Assembly (NCBI GenBank): GCA_017554105.1
Contig: JAFZIY010000031.1
Coordinates: forward strand, 62,001-126,000
DNA: 64,000 bases
Direction: 5' to 3'
Source: Prevotella sp.
GTDB lineage: Bacteria; Bacteroidota; Bacteroidia; Bacteroidales; Bacteroidaceae
Of the stretch, positions 14,057 through 63,671 are shown piece by piece. The position numbers and the translations under genes are program-made. Below the pieces are notes generated by a model that did not search any database, had not been told where the DNA came from, and worked only from the letters and a program-made list of their open reading frames with translations. Each line of letters starts with the position of its first letter. Position 1 is the stretch's first letter.

Positions 14057-14112
14057 TGAGTTAGGAGTTAGGGGTTAGGAGTTAGAAGTTAGGAGTTAGG
14101 AGTTAATGGCTG
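14057..14112. repeat. GTTAGGA heptamer array directly before ispD
   Basis: Six or seven AGTTAGG/AGTTAGA units abut the ispD start codon and are followed by a second array of the AATTATC/AATTGTC type (about 14113-14142) that reaches into the end of the DJ-1 gene region. Confidence 0.8.
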
Positions 14113-14852: not shown

Positions 14853-15731
14853 ATGCAACAACGACGGTTACGATTCGCCATATTCGGGAACACCTATCAG
14901 CCCAAGAGTGCCGAGGCAGTGAGCAAATTCCTGCACTGCGTGGCACAGCATGGGGGTGAGGTGTGCATAGAAAGGGAGTTCCATAAGTATCTCTCACGAA
15001 ACCATGACCTCGCCATCGATGCCGCAGAGGTGTTCAGCGGCACCTATTTCGATGCCGATTTCGTGGTGTCTATTGGTGGAGACGGTACGTTGCTGAAGGC
15101 TGCCAACTATGTCGGAGCACGCCAACTGCCTATCATCGGAGTGAACACCGGGAGGCTGGGATTCCTTGCCGACACCACGGCAACAGAGATAGAGACCACT
15201 ATTGACGCTATCTTCGATGGTAATTTCACCACTGAGGAGCATGCAGTCATCGAGGTAAAGGGCGACATCTCGGGCAGTCCGTTCGCACTGAACGATATCG
15301 CCGTACTGAAACGTGACAACGCATCGATGATTTCTATCAAGGCATCCATCAACGGTGAGTATCTCACTACATATCAGGCCGACGGTCTGATAGTGTCGAC
15401 ACCAACGGGATCCACAGCCTATTCCCTCTCCAACGGCGGACCGATAGTGGCTCCACAGTCGGGCATCATCTGCCTTACTCCTGTGGCACCGCATAGTCTT
15501 AACGTGCGACCGATAGTGATTCCCGACACGGCAGAGATAACTCTCTCGGTGGAGAGCCGCTCACATAACTTCCTCGTTGCCATCGACGGACGGTCAGAGA
15601 AATGTCTTGAGGGCACCGCACTCACCATCCGTCGCGCTGCCCATACCATAAGAATATTGCGACTCTTCGGCAGAAACTACTACTCCACCCTGCGCGAGAA
15701 GATGATGTGGGGAAGGGACAATAGGAGTTAG
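14853..15731 (+). CDS. nadK: NAD kinase
   Basis: 292 residues from ATG 14853. The conserved GGDGT is at 75-79, NTGRLGFL at 98-105, and the TPTGSTAYSLSNGG block in the middle binds substrate. It phosphorylates NAD to NADP in the cytoplasm. The length and the N-terminal FAIFGNTYQ fit Bacteroidetes NadK; the open frame upstream of 14853 runs through the promoter and is not coding. The last three codons and the TAG stop fall within a heptamer repeat (AGGAGTTAG), so the array after the gene supplies its end. Confidence 0.95.
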   Translation: MQQRRLRFAIFGNTYQPKSAEAVSKFLHCVAQHGGEVCIEREFHKYLSRNHDLAIDAAEVFSGTYFDADFVVSIGGDGTLLKAANYVGARQLPIIGVNTGRLGFLADTTATEIETTIDAIFDGNFTTEEHAVIEVKGDISGSPFALNDIAVLKRDNASMISIKASINGEYLTTYQADGLIVSTPTGSTAYSLSNGGPIVAPQSGIICLTPVAPHSLNVRPIVIPDTAEITLSVESRSHNFLVAIDGRSEKCLEGTALTIRRAAHTIRILRLFGRNYYSTLREKMMWGRDNRS

Positions 15732-15806
15732 GAGTGAAGAGTTAGAAGTTAGGAGTTCTTGCCTTGCAAGCGCCCCTGCGGGTCGAGCGAGGAATTAGGA
15801 GTTACA
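15722..15806. repeat. GTTAGGA heptamer arrays around a GC-richer core
   Basis: Units of the AGTTAGG/AGTTAGA type run from the nadK stop to about 15757. A core with CTTGCCTTGCAAG and GCCCCTGCGGGTCGAGC follows, then GGAATTAGGAGTTA resumes before the ABC transporter gene. The CTTG-n-CAAG word at the core start recalls the core of the 11.1 and 51.2 kb elements. Confidence 0.7.
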
Positions 15807-15825
15807 ACTGTTCAACTATATAAGA

Positions 15826-17496
15826 ATGAAAGTAAAGGAACTGCTTAAAATGGAGGACAGCCGCTACCCAGTGCGACAGATATTGCGCTGGCTGTGGCGT
15901 GCATGGCGCGGCAATCGCCTGCAGGCGTGCCTCAACGCCATACTGGGACTGGTTGGCGTTGCCGTCAGTCTGTCACAGGTATGGGCGGTGCAGCATGCCA
16001 TTGACGTGGCAGCACATACCATCGACGGTTCTCTTTACTGGGCAGTGGCACTCATGGGTGCGCTCATTCTTTGCGACTTCGCCCTCCACATAGCAAGTAT
16101 CTGGGTGCGTAACATACTCGGAATACGAGCACAGAACCGCATGCAACAGCGCATGCTCGACAGAATACTGCGGTCAGAGTGGCATGGCAAGGAGCGTTTC
16201 CACAGCGGTGACGTAATCAACCGACTCGAAGGCGACGTCAGCAACGTGGTGGGATTTCTCACAGAGACCATCCCCAGCACGCTCTCCGTACTGGCATTGT
16301 TCCTCGGTGCCTTCTTCTATCTCTTCTCGATGGATGCCCTGCTGGCTGTACTCATCATCGTCATGCTGCCGATATTCATCCTTGTCAGCAAGGTTTATAT
16401 AAAGCAGATGCGCAAACTGACACGCAAGGTGCGCGACAGCGACTCCAAGGTGCAGAGCGTTCTGCAAGAGACAGTGCAGAACAGGATGATCATCAAGACT
16501 CTCGAGAGCGACTCCTTCATGGTGGGCAAGCTGGAGAACACACAGAGCGAACTGCGCCACAACGTGGTGAAACGCACTATTTTCTCTGTTCTCTCCAACC
16601 TTATACTCAACTTCGGATTTGCCCTTGGCTATCTCATTGCGTTCCTCTGGAGTGCCATGAGGATGTATAACAACACCTTGTCATTTGGTGGAATGACCGC
16701 CTTCTTGCAACTGGTGGCAAAGATACAGGGACCTGCACGCTCGCTGACAAAACTCGTCCCGGCATTCGTAAGCGTATTCACCGCTGCCGAACGACTCATG
16801 GAACTGGAGGAGAATCCACTCGAAGAGCAGGGCGACCCGATAGAGATGGACAGTCCGTGCGGTGTGCGTCTTGATGATGTTTCCTATGCTTATACCGATG
16901 AAGACGGCGACGTTGTGAAGAACCTAACGTTCGATTTCTTCCCTGGTTCATGCACCGCGATACTCGGTGAGACGGGTGCTGGAAAGACGACACTGGTGCG
17001 CATGATTCTCGCACTCATAAAACCGAGAAACGGCAACGCCGTTATATATAATAAGGAAGAAGAGAAGCCGCTGTCACCATTGCTGCGATGCAACTTCGTT
17101 TATGTGCCACAGGGCAACACGCTGCTCAGCGGAACGATACGCGAGAACCTCCGTCTGGGACGTGTGGAAGCCACCGAGGAAGACATGAACGAAGCGCTCA
17201 AGCAGGCTTGCGCCGACTTTGTGTTCTCACTGCCGCAGGGCATCGACACCATCTGTAGCGAGAGTGGAGGTGGACTGAGCGAAGGACAGGCCCAGCGCAT
17301 CGCCATCGCCCGTGCACTCCTTAGGAAGGGAAGCATCATGCTCTTCGATGAGGCTACAAGTGCACTTGACCCCGACACCGAACGACAACTACTAAAGAAC
17401 ATACTTGAGAAACGCGACAAGACGATAATCTTCATCACCCACCGTCCTGCCGTTGTAGATTATTGCGACCAGACATTGCACATTGAGAAAATCTAA
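15826..17496 (+). CDS. ABC exporter, fused permease and ATPase (MsbA-like)
   Basis: 556 residues: an N-terminal six-span type I exporter domain (about 25-315) followed by a nucleotide-binding domain with Walker A GETGAGKTT at about 382-390, signature LSEGQ near 484 and Walker B IMLFDEATSALD near 504-515, plus the switch His in FITHRPA. It should work as a dimer exporting a lipid, peptide or drug from the inner membrane. Nothing in the context fixes the substrate. A repeat-rich spacer separates it from nadK. Confidence 0.9.
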   Translation: MKVKELLKMEDSRYPVRQILRWLWRAWRGNRLQACLNAILGLVGVAVSLSQVWAVQHAIDVAAHTIDGSLYWAVALMGALILCDFALHIASIWVRNILGIRAQNRMQQRMLDRILRSEWHGKERFHSGDVINRLEGDVSNVVGFLTETIPSTLSVLALFLGAFFYLFSMDALLAVLIIVMLPIFILVSKVYIKQMRKLTRKVRDSDSKVQSVLQETVQNRMIIKTLESDSFMVGKLENTQSELRHNVVKRTIFSVLSNLILNFGFALGYLIAFLWSAMRMYNNTLSFGGMTAFLQLVAKIQGPARSLTKLVPAFVSVFTAAERLMELEENPLEEQGDPIEMDSPCGVRLDDVSYAYTDEDGDVVKNLTFDFFPGSCTAILGETGAGKTTLVRMILALIKPRNGNAVIYNKEEEKPLSPLLRCNFVYVPQGNTLLSGTIRENLRLGRVEATEEDMNEALKQACADFVFSLPQGIDTICSESGGGLSEGQAQRIAIARALLRKGSIMLFDEATSALDPDTERQLLKNILEKRDKTIIFITHRPAVVDYCDQTLHIEKI

Positions 17497-17526
17497 AAGC
17501 ACCCCACTAACATCGTAAGAAGCCAC

Positions 17527-17790
17527 CTTTCGCAATCCGAAAGGATATCAATCGCACCCTAAATCATCACCTTTCGCAACCTCAAAGGACATCTTTCGGA
17601 CTGCGAAAGCATATCTTTCGCATGGCAATCCTGCCAGGTTTACTCACCAATTCTGCCAGGTTTGGTCTGCAATCCTGCCAGGTTTACTTTGTAATTTCGC
17701 CGGATTTACTCAGCAATCATTGGTTAAGAAGACTCACCACAACCTTAAACGTCGAAACACATTTGGTCAAACGTCGAAGTTGATTTTGAA
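17527..17790. repeat. 22-bp lattice array, locus 1 (12 units, three families in one phase)
   Basis: This 368-bp gene-free stretch is built of 12 consecutive 22-bp units. CTTTCG opens the units at 17527, 17571, 17593 and 17615, mostly with a matching CGAAAG to form a hairpin. From the fifth unit TGCCAGGTTT straddles the unit border (around 17636, 17658, 17680), with a weaker copy at 17702. AAACGTCGAA opens units 17747 and 17769. All three families keep the same 22-bp phase. Confidence 0.85.
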
Positions 17791-17815
17791 CATGCCCCCT
17801 CTTTTCATACCTTTG
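17785..17815 (+). promoter_or_regulatory. Promoter of the small secreted protein gene
   Basis: TTTG (17785-17788), 19 bp, then TACCTTTG (17808-17815): both halves of the Bacteroidetes promoter with standard spacing. The leader would be about 45 nt. Confidence 0.7.
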
Positions 17816-17864
17816 CAATGTCAGAAGACAAAACAGAGTATTAACAATTTAAAAAGTTAAGTAT

Positions 17865-18227
17865 ATGAAAAAGGTTATTATCGCCCTCGTGGCAATGTTC
17901 GTGATTACAATGAGTGCTAATGCACAGAGTGACAACAACAGTAAGGTGACATTCGACCGTATAAGCAGCTATCTGGAACTCAGAGTTGACCAGGTGGAAC
18001 CTGTGAAGACGGCAATGGCTCAGTTCTCAAGTTCGGTGGAATCCATCTATCAGATGAAAGATGCCTCCAAGATTGGTGAGGCATGGGAGAAGATTCAGAA
18101 TCGCCACAAAGCAACAATGAAGAAGATTCTGAATGAGAAACAATACAATAAGTACGTTGAGATGCTCGACCTAACTGCTAAAAACAATGCTGAACGGATG
18201 ATGAGCGAGGCTACGGCTGCTCAATAG
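17865..18227 (+). CDS. Small secreted helical protein, unknown function
   Basis: 120 residues: a cleavable signal peptide (about 1-21, ending ANAQ) and a mature part of roughly 100 residues that is polar, charged and probably all-helical (EKIQNRHKATMKKILNEK, LDLTAKNNAERM). The size and helical pattern recall periplasmic CpxP/Spy-type proteins, but I see no LTxxQ-type motif, so this is only an analogy. It has its own promoter after the 22-bp lattice and is followed by a second small secreted protein and a two-component system, which suggests a link to envelope stress sensing. Confidence 0.6.
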   Translation: MKKVIIALVAMFVITMSANAQSDNNSKVTFDRISSYLELRVDQVEPVKTAMAQFSSSVESIYQMKDASKIGEAWEKIQNRHKATMKKILNEKQYNKYVEMLDLTAKNNAERMMSEATAAQ

Positions 18228-18349
18228 TAGCCAAGGCTGAGGAATTAGGAGGGAGCAGGTTAGTGACTTTGGACACATTCAAGCGACTTGTTCCCCCGAT
18301 TCTTGTATAAAAAAGGACAAAGTATTATTAACAATATAATGGAATAGTT

Positions 18350-18727
18350 ATGAAAAAAATGCTTTTTGTGTTGATGATGTTCATGGTAGGCACAGTATCA
18401 TTCGCTCAGACAAATAATGAGGATTTATTCATTGGCAAATGGAAGTTATTAGTAGATGGATTACCCACTGGTGATAAAGAAATGCTCCTCATCATTTTAA
18501 AGAACGAGGAAGGCCAGTTAGAAGGCGGTTTTGGCCGTATGGACGGCAGTGAATTTGCCGAACTAACTGATATTATCATCAAGGATAGTTCACTACAGGT
18601 ATTCTTTGACGTCAAAGGTTTCCATCTTTCTATTAACCTTAGCCGGAAGGAAGATGGAAACTTCACGGGCAGTTTCATGAATATGTTTGATTGCAAAGCT
18701 ACTAAAATTGAAGAAAAAAAGGAATGA
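18350..18727 (+). CDS. Small secreted lipocalin-like protein
   Basis: 125 residues. The signal peptide is about 1-19 (ending SFAQ). The mature part starts with EDLFIGKWKLLVDG, reminiscent of the GxW opening of lipocalin-like beta-barrel proteins, followed by alternating beta-type segments and a single Cys near the end. The function is not recognised. Its leader contains AGTATTATTAACAAT, much like the sequence before the preceding gene, so the two may be expressed alike. A promoter for the sensor kinase starts right after its stop. Confidence 0.55.
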   Translation: MKKMLFVLMMFMVGTVSFAQTNNEDLFIGKWKLLVDGLPTGDKEMLLIILKNEEGQLEGGFGRMDGSEFAELTDIIIKDSSLQVFFDVKGFHLSINLSRKEDGNFTGSFMNMFDCKATKIEEKKE

Positions 18728-18728
18728 G

Positions 18729-18760
18729 TTTGGTCTTTTGATTACTTAATCATATCTTTG
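18729..18760 (+). promoter_or_regulatory. Promoter of the sensor-kinase operon
   Basis: TTTG (18729-18732), 20 bp, then TATCTTTG (18753-18760). Only 8 nt separate the -7 box from ATG 18769, so the mRNA should have a leader of just a few bases. Confidence 0.65.
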
Positions 18761-18768
18761 CATACGAA

Positions 18769-19773
18769 ATGAAGAAGATACAAGGAAAAGACATCTGGTT
18801 GTTGGCGGCGCAATTGCTGCTGCTGTCACTCATTATGCTCTCACCGGGACTCATCAGCTATATCAGCAGTAAAGACGGCGAGTTGGCCGTTCGATCAATC
18901 TGGATATCGCTCAACTGGCTTGGTCCTATGGTGGTCGTCTATCTTCTGAACTTCTATTTCTTCATCCCCCAGATGTGGTATCGGCGCCGTTTCTGGCAGT
19001 TTTCCGTCGCAAATGTTGTGTTGATAGTTTTGTGCAACCTGCACCTTATCAGTAATGACATCAGCAATCTGCCCAAAGATGTTCAAGCAGGCTTTTCTTC
19101 GTTCATGATGATCTCATTCCTACTTTGTCTGATGGCTATAGGCATCGCATTGAGCATCCGTTATCTGATGCGGCAGAGCGAAAGGAAACAGAAGGAGGTG
19201 GAGGCCGAACTGGCGTGGCTGAAGAACCAGATTAATCCCCACTTTCTCTTTAACACGCTGAACAACATCTCGAGTCTGACGCAGATAGATGCCGATGAGG
19301 CTCAGGATGCCGTGATGAAGCTGAGCGACCTGCTGCGCTATGCCCTCTATGAGTCAAACAAAAATAAGGTGCCCATCAGTGGCGAAGTGGAGTTTATGCG
19401 CAACTATATCGAGCTGATGAAACTGCGCTGCAATGATATGACCAGCGTTAATTATCAATTAGAAGTTATCAATTATCAATTAGAAGTGGCTCCGCTGCTT
19501 TTTATTTCCCTGATTGAGAATGCCTTCAAACATGGTGCCAACAGCAATGCCCCAGCCATTATAAACATCCGTCTGACAGAGGAAAACCAACGACTGACGT
19601 TTGTCTGCGACAACACCAACAATCCCAAGCCCACCAAGGACCGCAGCGGCTCGGGCATTGGAATTGAGAACACCCGTCGCCGTCTCGACCTGCTTTATGG
19701 CGGACGTTACGAGTGGCAACAAACCATCACGCCCGACAATATCTATCACGTTAAAATAACCCTTAAGCTATGA
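18769..19773 (+). CDS. LytS-type sensor histidine kinase
   Basis: 334 residues: four predicted membrane spans in the first 140 residues, then the His_kinase domain with the phosphoacceptor His in LKNQINPHFLFNTLNNIS (about 150-165) and a degenerate ATPase domain with ENAFKHG and GSGIGIENTRRRL. It should phosphorylate the LytTR regulator whose gene overlaps its stop by 4 bp. The segment VNYQLEVINYQLEV before APLLFISLIENAFKHG contains a perfect 7-residue duplication encoded by a heptamer array at 19450-19487; relatives carry only one copy of such a segment. Confidence 0.9.
   Translation: MKKIQGKDIWLLAAQLLLLSLIMLSPGLISYISSKDGELAVRSIWISLNWLGPMVVVYLLNFYFFIPQMWYRRRFWQFSVANVVLIVLCNLHLISNDISNLPKDVQAGFSSFMMISFLLCLMAIGIALSIRYLMRQSERKQKEVEAELAWLKNQINPHFLFNTLNNISSLTQIDADEAQDAVMKLSDLLRYALYESNKNKVPISGEVEFMRNYIELMKLRCNDMTSVNYQLEVINYQLEVAPLLFISLIENAFKHGANSNAPAIINIRLTEENQRLTFVCDNTNNPKPTKDRSGSGIGIENTRRRLDLLYGGRYEWQQTITPDNIYHVKITLKL
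19450..19487. repeat. Heptamer array inside the sensor-kinase gene
   Basis: The 17-mer AATTATCAATTAGAAGT occurs at 19450-19466 and 19471-19487, 21 bp (three heptamers, seven codons) apart, in frame. Confidence 0.85.
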
Positions 19774-20501
19774 GACCGCTGACATGTATCATTGTAGATG
19801 ACGAGCCTCTGGCCGTTCGTCTGTTGGAGTCGTATGTGGAAAAGACACCCGACCTGCGTCTACTGGGTTCATTCACCGACTCCATCAACGCCCTCAATGC
19901 GGTGAAGGAACAGAAGCCCAATCTTCTGCTTCTCGACATACAGATGCCTAATATGGACGGCATGGAACTGGCTCATAGTCTCACAGCCGATACACGCGTT
20001 GTCTTCACCACAGCGTTCAAGGAGTATGCCTTCGAGAGTTATGAGGTGAATGCCCTCGACTTCCTGCTGAAGCCTGTCCGCTATAATAAGTTCCTCGCGG
20101 CTGTCGAGAAAGCCTTCCAGTGGTTTGACCATCAGTCTGCCGACACCGCTGACTCTGCTCCTTCCAACACTCCTTCAACACTGTTTGTCCGGGTCGATGG
20201 CGAGTGGCGTAACATCCCTATCAGTCAGATTACCTATGTCAGTGGCATGAAAGATTACGTATTATTCTATCTCGACGGAGAGAAGAAACCTCTCATCTCA
20301 CATCTGACGATGAAATCAGTTGAGAGTATGTTGCCAGCAGACAAATTCCTACGCGTGCATCGCAGTTACATCATAGCAGTTGATAAAATACAGAGAGTAG
20401 ATCGTAATGACTGCATATACATTGGCGATGAAATCATACATGTCCCCGATGGCTATTTAGCCTCCTTCAGGACTTTCATCGAGAAACACAGTATTCGCTG
20501 A
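19770..20501 (+). CDS. LytTR-family response regulator
   Basis: 243 residues. The receiver domain has IIVDDEPL near the N-terminus, phosphoacceptor Asp in LLLLDIQMPNMDG and the conserved Lys in LKPVRY. The C-terminal LytTR DNA-binding domain (about 135-243) shows ITYVSGMKDY and FLRVHRSYII. It overlaps the kinase gene by ATGA, so they form a coupled two-component pair. Targets are unknown; the two small secreted proteins just upstream are the obvious local candidates. Confidence 0.93.
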   Translation: MRPLTCIIVDDEPLAVRLLESYVEKTPDLRLLGSFTDSINALNAVKEQKPNLLLLDIQMPNMDGMELAHSLTADTRVVFTTAFKEYAFESYEVNALDFLLKPVRYNKFLAAVEKAFQWFDHQSADTADSAPSNTPSTLFVRVDGEWRNIPISQITYVSGMKDYVLFYLDGEKKPLISHLTMKSVESMLPADKFLRVHRSYIIAVDKIQRVDRNDCIYIGDEIIHVPDGYLASFRTFIEKHSIR

Positions 20502-20503
20502 CG

Positions 20504-21175
20504 TTAGAATCCGTTGCCGTTCCATTTGATTACCTTGTCTCTGTCGGACGAGAAGTCGTTATACTTGATGTCGCGACCTACCTTGGGAAGTTTGACGAAG
20601 ATTTCGGTTTCATCGGCCTCAGGTGGGTACGATATGCCCATTTTGTCGTATATCCTCTTTACAACGTCGAAACGGGGCGTGAGCGTGCCTTTAGCGGCGT
20701 TGTATTCGTAGAAGGCAATCATACAGTTGGCAAATATTTCGCCATCAATCTCGATGCTTACACCAAAGAGTTTGTTGCCGTTAGGTAGGTTCCAATATAC
20801 GGCTTGGAGGATTTTTTTTCTGGTGATTGTGTCGCCTTTTAAGAAGTTGCCGTCCACTTCTGCAATCATCGTCCACGAGCCGTATATTTCAATGAAGCCG
20901 TTCTGGGGGGCGTAGTCAACTTTGTAGTTGTAGAGACCTTGGTTTTTGGTGTCGCCAGTCTTTTTGTAGGTGTCGAAGATTTCCACAAACTCGTTTGGAA
21001 ACTCCTTGCCCCACGCCAAGAGTAGTTTTTCTACGACTGGAGCCTGCGAGTTGGGGACTGTGATTGTCTTCTGCCACGTGTCGCGTAGTTCATCCACGTA
21101 GTCATCGTACAGTTGTGCACTTGCGGTGATTGTTGCAAGTACTGTTAACAATGCGATTGCCAGGATTTTTTTCAT
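20504..21175 (-). CDS. Secreted protein of unknown function
   Basis: 223 residues from ATG 21175, chosen because it opens a clean signal peptide (MKKILAIALLTVLATITASAQ); the upstream extension lacks one. The mature part is mixed alpha/beta with many aromatic and charged residues (YKVDYAPQNGFIEIYGSW, LFGVSIEIDGEIFANCMIAFYEY). I recognise no domain. It should be periplasmic or surface located. It converges on the LytTR gene with only 2 bp between stops and stands before the GH53 gene on the same strand, though with its own leader. Confidence 0.6.
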   Translation of the reverse strand: MKKILAIALLTVLATITASAQLYDDYVDELRDTWQKTITVPNSQAPVVEKLLLAWGKEFPNEFVEIFDTYKKTGDTKNQGLYNYKVDYAPQNGFIEIYGSWTMIAEVDGNFLKGDTITRKKILQAVYWNLPNGNKLFGVSIEIDGEIFANCMIAFYEYNAAKGTLTPRFDVVKRIYDKMGISYPPEADETEIFVKLPKVGRDIKYNDFSSDRDKVIKWNGNGF

Positions 21176-48406: not shown

Positions 48407-49096
48407 ATGTCGTGTATTTTAAGCATTGAGACGAGCACAGACGTCTGTTCTGTGGCGATGAGCGAGAATGGTCAGTGCATATTCAAGAAGGAAGATCACA
48501 GCGGTCCGAACCATGCCGTAAGCCTTGGAGTATATGTCGATGAGGCACTGTCGTTCACCGATAATCACGCCATACCACTGGGTGCTGTGGCTGTTAGTAG
48601 CGGCCCTGGTTCCTACACCGGACTTCGCATCGGCGTCTCGATGGCAAAGGGGATATGCTACGGACGTGACGTGCCACTGCTCTCGGTGCCTACTCTCGAA
48701 GTGATGGCCGTGCCGGTACTGCTCAACCACGAGATTGAGGATGACGCACTGCTGTGCCCTATGATTGACGCACGACGCATGGAGGTGTACTCCGCAATCT
48801 ACGACCGTGCACTGAAACAGCAACGCGAGATACGCGCCGATGTTGTCGACGGTGACACCTATCGCGAGTTCCTCGACCAACACCCGGTATATTTCTTCGG
48901 CAACGGTGCTGCGAAATGCATGGAGACGATAAACCATCCCAACGCTCACCTGATAAAGGGCATCGAGCCATTGGCAAAGTATATGTTCCCCTTGGCTGAA
49001 CGGAAATGGGTGCAGGAGGAGTTCGAGGACGTGGCATACTACGTGCCGTTCTATCTCAAGGACTTTGTGGCAAAGATGCCGAAGAAAGTGTTATGA
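48407..49096 (+). CDS. tsaB: tRNA threonylcarbamoyladenosine biosynthesis protein TsaB
   Basis: 229 residues. ILSIETSTDVCSVAM at the N-terminus and VSSGPGSYTGLRIGVSMAKGICYG are the TsaB signatures of the ASKHA fold. It is the dimerisation and scaffold partner of TsaD in forming t6A37 of ANN-decoding tRNAs. Standard length and no odd residues. Its TGA stop directly abuts the GTTAGGAGT array that runs to the next gene, with which it may form an operon. Confidence 0.93.
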   Translation: MSCILSIETSTDVCSVAMSENGQCIFKKEDHSGPNHAVSLGVYVDEALSFTDNHAIPLGAVAVSSGPGSYTGLRIGVSMAKGICYGRDVPLLSVPTLEVMAVPVLLNHEIEDDALLCPMIDARRMEVYSAIYDRALKQQREIRADVVDGDTYREFLDQHPVYFFGNGAAKCMETINHPNAHLIKGIEPLAKYMFPLAERKWVQEEFEDVAYYVPFYLKDFVAKMPKKVL

Positions 49097-49148
49097 GTTA
49101 GGAGTGAGGAGTTAGAAGTTAGAAGTTAGGAATTAGGAGTGAGGAGTT
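49097..49148. repeat. GTTAGGA heptamer array between tsaB and the DUF4290 gene
   Basis: About seven units of the AGTTAGG/AGTGAGG/AGTTAGA type begin at the tsaB stop codon. Confidence 0.8.
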
Positions 49149-59758: not shown

Positions 59759-59761
59759 ATT

Positions 59762-59803
59762 ATAGTTAGGAGTTATGAGTTAGGAATTAGGAGTTATGAA
59801 TTA
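59762..59803. repeat. GTTAGGA heptamer array in the ftsZ leader
   Basis: Units AGTTAGG, AGTTATG, AGTTAGG, AATTAGG, AGTTATG, AATTATG lie between the ftsZ promoter and start and are therefore transcribed into the 5' leader. Confidence 0.75.
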
Positions 59804-59826
59804 TGAGGTTTTCCTTGTTTTGCCTG

Positions 59827-63495: not shown

Positions 63496-63671
63496 GTCGT
63501 TTGTTTTTACCAAAGTCACCACCTGTTTTTGGTAAACGTGTTACCAGCCGTTGGTAACATTCCTACCAGCCATCGGTAGGCTCCCTACCAGGCACTGGTA
63601 AGCTCCCTACCAGCCGTTGGTAGCATCATTACAAGCCACCTGTGACATTTTTGGTAGCGGTTTCCTACTTT
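63496..63671. repeat. 22-bp lattice array, locus 2 (hairpin units)
   Basis: The gap between the helicase and the nucleotidase-like gene is filled by 22-bp units starting at 63518, 63540, 63562, 63584, 63606, 63628 and 63650. Most carry TACCA near the start and TGGTA near position 13-17, forming a hairpin around GCC(G/A)T. The last unit overlaps the end of the next gene. Confidence 0.85.

Follow-up and report, generated by a model that had tools for sequence, protein, structure and literature searches.

In a window of 64,000 nt from Prevotella sp. contig JAFZIY010000031.1, which is the whole stretch of DNA analyzed here, two independent elements abut in the region between an ABC exporter gene (15826-17496) and a small gene (17865-18227). 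Units 1 to 9 of the 22-bp series at 17527-17790 belong to a class of intergenic arrays found in the Prevotella group, in which the spacing is about two helix turns and the sequence varies by species. Units 11 and 12 are a predicted LytTR-type operator of the downstream operon, which is independent and conserved, has a geometry as published for such sites, and matches them closely. For the arrays, the chances are about evenly balanced that they are platforms for a putative DNA-binding protein assembling on half-sites one helical turn apart.

The 22-bp periodicity at 17527-17790, which had been claimed in a first-pass annotation of the window, was found to be genuine. In an autocorrelation of the region the top lag was 22 with a match of 0.529, lags 44 and 66 were likewise elevated, and none of 2000 dinucleotide shuffles (mean, 0.254; standard deviation, 0.028) reached this value at any lag from 5 to 66. 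The lag-22 match was 0.53 for units 1 to 5 and 0.62 for units 5 to 9, each exceeding all 2000 shuffles, and 0.455 for units 10 to 12, a value reached by 7 of the 2000 shuffles. From unit 1 to unit 9, adjacent units were identical at 10, 13, 14, 10, 13, 17, 14, and 11 of the 22 positions, and units 11 and 12 at 15 of 22. Unit 10 (17725-17746, no strand assigned) was rejected as a member of the repeat, as its identity to units 9 and 11 is at chance level (6/22 and 5/22, respectively). The annotation had described 12 continuous units; this was upheld for units 1 to 9 and for the pair 11 and 12, and the layout is nine units, then an unrelated 22-bp spacer, then the pair. A CRISPR array was also rejected for the 22-bp units, which are imperfect and contiguous and have no unique spacers between near-identical repeats. 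A search of 17500-17860 for a plasmid or phage origin gave no match at 1e-5. The closest relative by exporter identity (94%) is UBA4330, whose contig stops 30 bp past the exporter; in Prevotella koreensis, Prevotella sp. OH937, and SUG1800, neither the array nor the operator was seen by eye in the ~430 bp past the exporter.

The three sequence themes of the annotation, CTTTCG...CGAAAG, TGCCAGGTTT, and AAACGTCGAA, were located where it had placed them. The palindromic character of the first two had been half seen, and the full dyads can now be defined as CTTTCG-N5-CGAAAG (theme D) and AATCCTGCCAGGTTT (theme C). Theme D occupies units 1 to 5 (17527-17636), unit 2 being degenerate and unit 5 a hybrid, and theme C extends from the rest of unit 5 to unit 9 (17627-17724), with a TTTCG variant in unit 8 and a degenerate end of unit 9; neither part has an assigned strand. 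Units 1 to 9 have eight symmetry axes at which 7 or more of 10 positions pair (17535-17700, no strand), and all of them lie on a single 11-bp lattice that spans the change of theme, with those of theme D at 17535, 17601, and 17612 and those of theme C at 17634, 17656, 17667, 17678, and 17700. The proposal that three families share one phase was not supported: a common phase holds for the two themes of units 1 to 9; units 11 and 12 are an independent operator behind an unrelated spacer and cannot be said to share the phase, as there is no common landmark between the motifs.

Units 11 and 12 have the structure AAACGTCGAA-N12-AAACGTCGAA, with two 10-bp copies (17747-17756 and 17769-17778, plus strand) that are separated by 12 bp and begin 22 bp apart, and a putative promoter lies just downstream. 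Its elements, also on the plus strand, are TTTG at 17785-17788, 6 nt past the second copy, and TACCTTTG at 17808-17815, 59 bp past the start of the first ACGTCGAA, which we take to be -33 and -7 boxes according to the Bacteroidota promoter consensus. The following genes on the same strand (17865-20501) form one apparent operon, whose membership we infer from gene order. It comprises two genes for small proteins (17865-18227 and 18350-18727), both with a signal-peptide-like start by eye and no Pfam match, a sensor kinase gene (18769-19773; PF06580, 7.8e-28), presumably of the LytS type, and a gene for a response regulator with a LytTR domain (19770-20501; PF00072, and PF04397 with 3e-15).

According to the accessible text of PMC4847170, LytTR sites consist of two direct or inverse repeats of 9 to 11 nt with 11 to 13 nt between them, and units 11 and 12 fit this rule in repeat length and spacing. 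They also sit immediately before the putative promoter of the apparent operon, which encodes a LytTR regulator. They differ from the operators described in the accessible sources in that they carry AAACGTCGAA rather than ACCxCTTA-like repeats, and in that the second copy ends 6 nt before the putative -33 box; in autoregulated LytTR operons the repeats are mostly 12 bp apart and lie ~10 bp before the -35 box (PMC6193735, accessible part). A further difference from the LytTR systems listed there is the operon partner, a two-component kinase. The LytTR response regulator of the operon would probably bind the two copies in units 11 and 12 and act at the promoter just downstream, and the site makes an operator of a Prevotella two-component system accessible to testing.

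The conservation of this element was followed through relatives of the first gene of the operon. Of 299 genus genomes, 28 contained such a relative (E ≤ 1e-10), which made 30 loci, including three in a single genome. A GTCGAA pair at an exact spacing of 22 bp was present upstream of the gene at 28 of the 30 loci, and at 27 of these 28 a -7-like box followed 59 to 60 bp further on; the distance of 33 given for locus L082 reflects an earlier chance match taken by the search pattern. At L068 and L071 the pair lies ~520 bp upstream and not immediately before the gene. The pair was missed at L078, where one copy is altered, and at L086, which has a single copy. Two loci (L002 and L003) have kept the pair and are missing units 1 to 9. 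In the source genome the full pair is unique, and at 3 mismatches it recurs at three further places versus one for a reversed control. Three LytTR proteins were found in this genome. On contig 24, the paralogous LytTR operon carries a direct repeat of its own, two copies of TTGGTCGAAAG spaced at 22 bp, in front of promoter-like boxes (by eye), and no GTCGAA pair was present within the 20-kb stretch around the third LytTR gene on contig 17. The contig 24 locus (L102, 16080-16500) also carries an array with another theme (theme A) ~170 bp upstream of the first gene.

The intergenic scan for a 22-bp period that the first-pass annotation had proposed led to arrays well outside the locus. An array was called when at least 28 of 44 positions matched, at lags of 12 to 59. 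In 842 kb of the source genome (27%; 40 stretches including the window), 26 non-coding arrays with lag 22 were called in 22 of the 40 stretches, plus one in coding sequence. Lag 22 was the highest non-coding lag of this genome; lag 44 gave 15 arrays, and the other lags, multiples of 7 excepted, gave 0.77 on average and 5 at most. As at the locus itself (0 of 2000), the 22-bp signal was not reproduced by shuffling: 20 rounds with the non-coding segments of the source genome gave no lag-22 array. Lag 23 gave none and lag 21 gave seven, which we read as 7-bp repeats, and a strong match at 21 or 23 occurred in none of the 26 arrays. A second array of the class, with the theme TTACCA-N5-TGGTAA (theme B), lies in the window at 63542-63638 (no strand assigned).

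Beyond the source genome, 400 kb of genome G016 contained 14 arrays at lag 22 and 16 at lag 44, the latter count stemming in part from separate 44-bp repeats. At three loci of this genome (L054, L056, and L058) such 44-bp tandem arrays, a separate repeat, are rich in CCCCTCC and reach nearly nine copies. Seven further members of the genus (18 stretches) gave 9 lag-22 arrays, with higher counts at lags 14 (11) and 16 (10), and three of these seven members (G019, G198, and G158; 8 stretches) gave none. Non-coding arrays were absent from two stretches of one other genus of the same family and from 40 stretches of other families, namely 20 from seven genomes of the order, 8 from three of the class, and 12 from four of the phylum; one coding lag-22 match each was found in the other-genus set and in the set from other families of the order. 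We also analyzed the best 80 of 130 candidate named loci that surround the exporter gene (1.48 Mb); the titles of 79 of them give Prevotella, Prevotellaceae, or genera that were split off from Prevotella, and the remaining title is Bacteroidales bacterium. These best 80 contained 64 lag-22 arrays in 41 loci. Counts were also raised at lags 14 (31), 16 (22), 24 (16), 40 (16), and 32 (14), which we read as mostly multiples of 7- and 8-bp repeats.

These counts bear on the explanation that the arrays are ordinary minisatellites without function, whose shared period is a coincidence. It is true that short 7- and 8-bp tandem repeats are also common in the source genome and its relatives, and by eye a few of the 113 arrays, such as L281, resemble ordinary repeats. 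A single sharp period over many species largely contradicts this explanation, however, as the 26 lag-22 arrays of the source genome stand against the low counts at the other lags that are not multiples of 7, and the named loci have 64 where the runner-up lag (44 left aside) has 31, so that we regard it as extremely improbable. We found no description of a 22-bp Prevotella repeat in the literature covered, which is weak evidence because preprints and most subscription papers fall outside that coverage.

The building blocks of the arrays are 11-bp half-units that alternate in orientation: like-oriented copies are 22 bp apart, and inverted copies lie between them on a continuing 11-bp lattice. 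The consensus unit was circularly palindromic with p<0.05 in 57 and with p<0.01 in 32 of the 113 arrays, and 56 had no significant dyad in this automatic test, which used automatic array borders, so that arrays palindromic by eye (window 63520 and L088) fall short of significance. In 65 arrays the strongest axis coincides with a base pair, in 12 it falls between bases, and the other 36 lack one. Of 93 further axes that had 8 or more of 10 pairs, 89 were displaced from the strongest one by a multiple of 11, a result only partly independent of the period, as a 22-bp period with one dyad forces dyads every 11 bp within a theme. A change of theme provides an independent test of the lattice. Across five composites of themes C and D, which like their borders were chosen by eye (axis threshold, 6/8), six of nine theme D axes were on the theme C lattice, compared to about 1 in 22 per axis for random phase. 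The lattice was kept in four of the five, including the window array, with L035 as the exception; the expectation that themes do not drift freely in phase held for the two array themes in these four and failed in one. An array of genome G187 (L180, 2022-2288) has three themes by eye, and 11 of its 15 axes share one phase, one of these being in the last part, which is weak support for a lattice across themes. The idea that something holds 22 bp constant as the sequence changes is borne out by units 1 to 9, by four of the five composites of the source genome, and by the arrays of many Prevotella-group species.

Four themes were distinguished by eye in the source genome: theme A, AACAATnTTATTAACTTTGTTC; theme B as given above; theme C, AAACCTGGCAGGATT and AATTTCGGCGAAATT; and theme D, CGAAAGGTG-CCTTTCG. 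With at most one mismatch, theme B had 70 sites in the genome versus 11 for a reversed control, and a C-like theme of P. koreensis had 234 matches versus 2 for the control. All close spacings were multiples of 22 among the sites listed, namely 28 of 28 in P. koreensis, where 100 of the 112 forward matches were listed, and 29 of 29 in the source genome, where 50 of the 70 sites were. On contig 1 of P. koreensis (G423), forward theme sites were denser at 1.0 to 2.0 Mb (60 of the 100 listed), and a gene with a dnaA domain lies at 2.33 Mb. Themes are common to arrays within a genome more than between genomes: the best-matching array was from the same genome in 62 of 86 cases (expected, 8.2), and in 25 of 46 (expected, 0.77) when the source genome and G016 were left out. 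As the named-locus arrays of one genome lie within ~22 kb, their sharing of themes is local sharing.

The main rival to the platform reading is that the arrays are selfish or mutational products: an ancestral 22-bp palindrome spread between loci and grew by slippage and fold-back copying of its arms while the themes drifted by mutation, with no protein reading it; we consider this possible, yet doubtful. The homogeneity of themes within genomes agrees with it, and fold-back copying would preserve palindromes while the sequence changes. Theme A has similar, inverted-looking flanks at several loci, and at L029 (~18500-18560, contig 15 of the source genome) a solitary theme A unit, adjacent to a theme D array, is enclosed in a longer imperfect inverted repeat and looks like a one-unit form of the element (both by eye). 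No common flanks were seen by eye for themes B, C, and D. What copying and drift leaves unexplained is the exact 22 in every theme of many species, with no strong 21 or 23 in the source genome and listed close spacings that are all multiples of 22. Units of one theme at different loci diverge outside the core (by eye), which also speaks against it, and cores persist at one orthologous position: in P. koreensis and OH937 an array lies between the same two conserved blocks and the CGAAATTG cores are kept, and the DNA immediately to its left barely aligns (one pair, by eye). In SUG1800 no array was called between these blocks.

The genomic position of the arrays does not favor promoters, unlike that of ordinary operators. 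For the 106 of 113 arrays that have two flanking genes, 25 convergent, 18 divergent, and 63 co-directional gaps were observed, compared to 15.2, 26.7, and 64.1 expected, and 41 of the 63 co-directional arrays are closer to the upstream stop than to the downstream start. A selfish palindrome would agree with a position that disfavors promoters. The excess in convergent gaps and the proximity to upstream stops could also be read as arrays acting as RNA, that is, as transcribed hairpins that terminate transcription or shield messenger ends. We regard this as very improbable, as on the presumed transcribed strand of the 63 co-directional arrays no wobble signature was detected at the axes (53 G-T versus 49 A-C mismatches; excess of either in 15 versus 15 arrays, with 33 ties), a hairpin requires no 22-bp lattice, and Rfam gave no match with E up to 1 in the window at 15000-21000.

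Position likewise counts in the question of whether every 22-bp unit, including those of the arrays, is a site of a LytTR-type regulator or of an oligomer with a LytTR-like fold. Units 11 and 12 are such a site by type, LytTR operators naturally have a spacing of ~22 bp, as do same-orientation copies in the arrays, and both direct and inverse repeats are described for LytTR sites in the accessible text of PMC4847170. In addition, the theme D half-unit GTCGAAAG is similar to the operator repeats, and RemA, which has a LytTR-related domain and has been suggested to wrap DNA, binds repetitive regions (PMC8481266, accessible part). The arrays, however, are not favored at promoters, their inverted copies lie 11 bp apart from axis to axis on a continuing lattice and not as one pair, the other themes have no resemblance to the operator by eye, and the LytTR proteins of the source genome number only three. 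We consider it very improbable that all units are sites of this kind.

A linked conserved gene, which the annotation had suggested to look for, was not found: among 49 proteins beside the 26 arrays of the source genome (open reading frames of at least 110 amino acids; those of more than 3600 nt or absent on one side were excluded), no Pfam family occurred in more than two, among the 25 of 101 families listed. A Y1 transposase (PF01797) was present in 5 of 6 genomes in which arrays were seen and in 6 of 18 without (Fisher p 0.06), which is in line with a selfish element. A strict dependence on Y1/RAYT transposases is disfavored by genome G003, in which five arrays lie within 60 kb and no Y1 match was obtained at a completeness of 99%, a point that also weighs against the selfish explanation; overall, the Y1 counts speak neither clearly for nor clearly against a part of these transposases. 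Taken together, the results on context, neighbors, wobble, and Y1 point to a symmetry at the DNA level that is read by a geometry-bound agent and not by an ordinary promoter regulator.

In the platform reading, each 11-bp half-unit would serve as a half-site for a sequence-specific DNA-binding protein that dimerizes and then extends into chains, with successive subunits one helical turn apart on the same face of the DNA. The fixed geometry of the subunits would hold 22 bp constant, and a shift in the specificity of the protein between species would alter the theme genome-wide and together. The arrays might then act as nucleation platforms for chromosome organization, silencing, or the marking of intergenic boundaries. 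Several results count against this reading: about half of the arrays have no significant dyad and one of five composites is off the lattice; no recurrent flanking family was seen, and convergent gaps are favored and divergent ones disfavored; the flanks of theme A suggest a copied element and Y1 is commoner in array genomes; and G019, G198, and G158 are without arrays, with lag 22 not being the top lag in the 18 other stretches of the genus. The up to four themes per genome (by eye) would require several proteins or one loosely specific protein. A more far-reaching form, which we put forward tentatively as the less probable one, is that a fast-evolving chromosome protein polymerizes on the 11-bp dyad lattice at up to ~100 intergenic platforms per Prevotella-group chromosome, a number extrapolated from the 26 arrays in 27% of the source genome. 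Geometry would be kept and specificity would turn over, as a bacterial counterpart of rapidly evolving centromere-like or boundary DNA. If a protein reads the arrays, they would mark a system for chromosome organization or silencing in a major group of bacteria of the gut and mouth, and array DNA could serve as bait for direct recovery of the cognate protein.

A repeat class whose definition rests more on geometry than on sequence is easily overlooked by homology searches, and the arrays share features with several known systems. REP and BIME elements are palindromic, have many intergenic copies, and form species-specific families. The arrays resemble them in being intergenic, multi-copy, palindromic, and species-specific, and differ from them in their exact 22-bp tandem spacing on an 11-bp lattice, with several themes sharing one geometry, and, with respect to REP/BIME associated with RAYT, in the array genome G003 without a Y1 match. 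PINSR of Prevotella intermedia, a 188-bp intergenic high-copy repeat with one consensus that is limited to part of Prevotella, is similar in location, copy number, and restriction to Prevotella; the accessible part of its description does not mention 22-bp units (PMC4755523). The BrickBuilt MITE of Porphyromonas gingivalis has 23-nt direct repeats of one sequence family with a leader and a tail, and 22-nt tandem repeats are mentioned for strain W83 (PMC4596501, accessible part). The arrays share with it tandem repeats of comparable length; its direct repeats inside a MITE with leader and tail and its single sequence family set it apart. Assembly on repetitive DNA, as proposed for the array protein, is described in the accessible texts for RemA, on repetitive and poorly conserved DNA of regulatory regions (PMC8481266), and for BldC, on direct repeats in regulatory regions (PMC5859096). 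Unlike these targets as described there, the arrays are genome-wide and consist of alternating putative half-sites.

A separate repeat class was visible in the same DNA. Runs of 7-bp repeats (GAGTTAG and similar) are located in the window at 14058-14105, 49090-49148, 59760-59807, and other positions, and 7-bp repeats also appear in the sample of the source genome at lags 14, 21, and 28.
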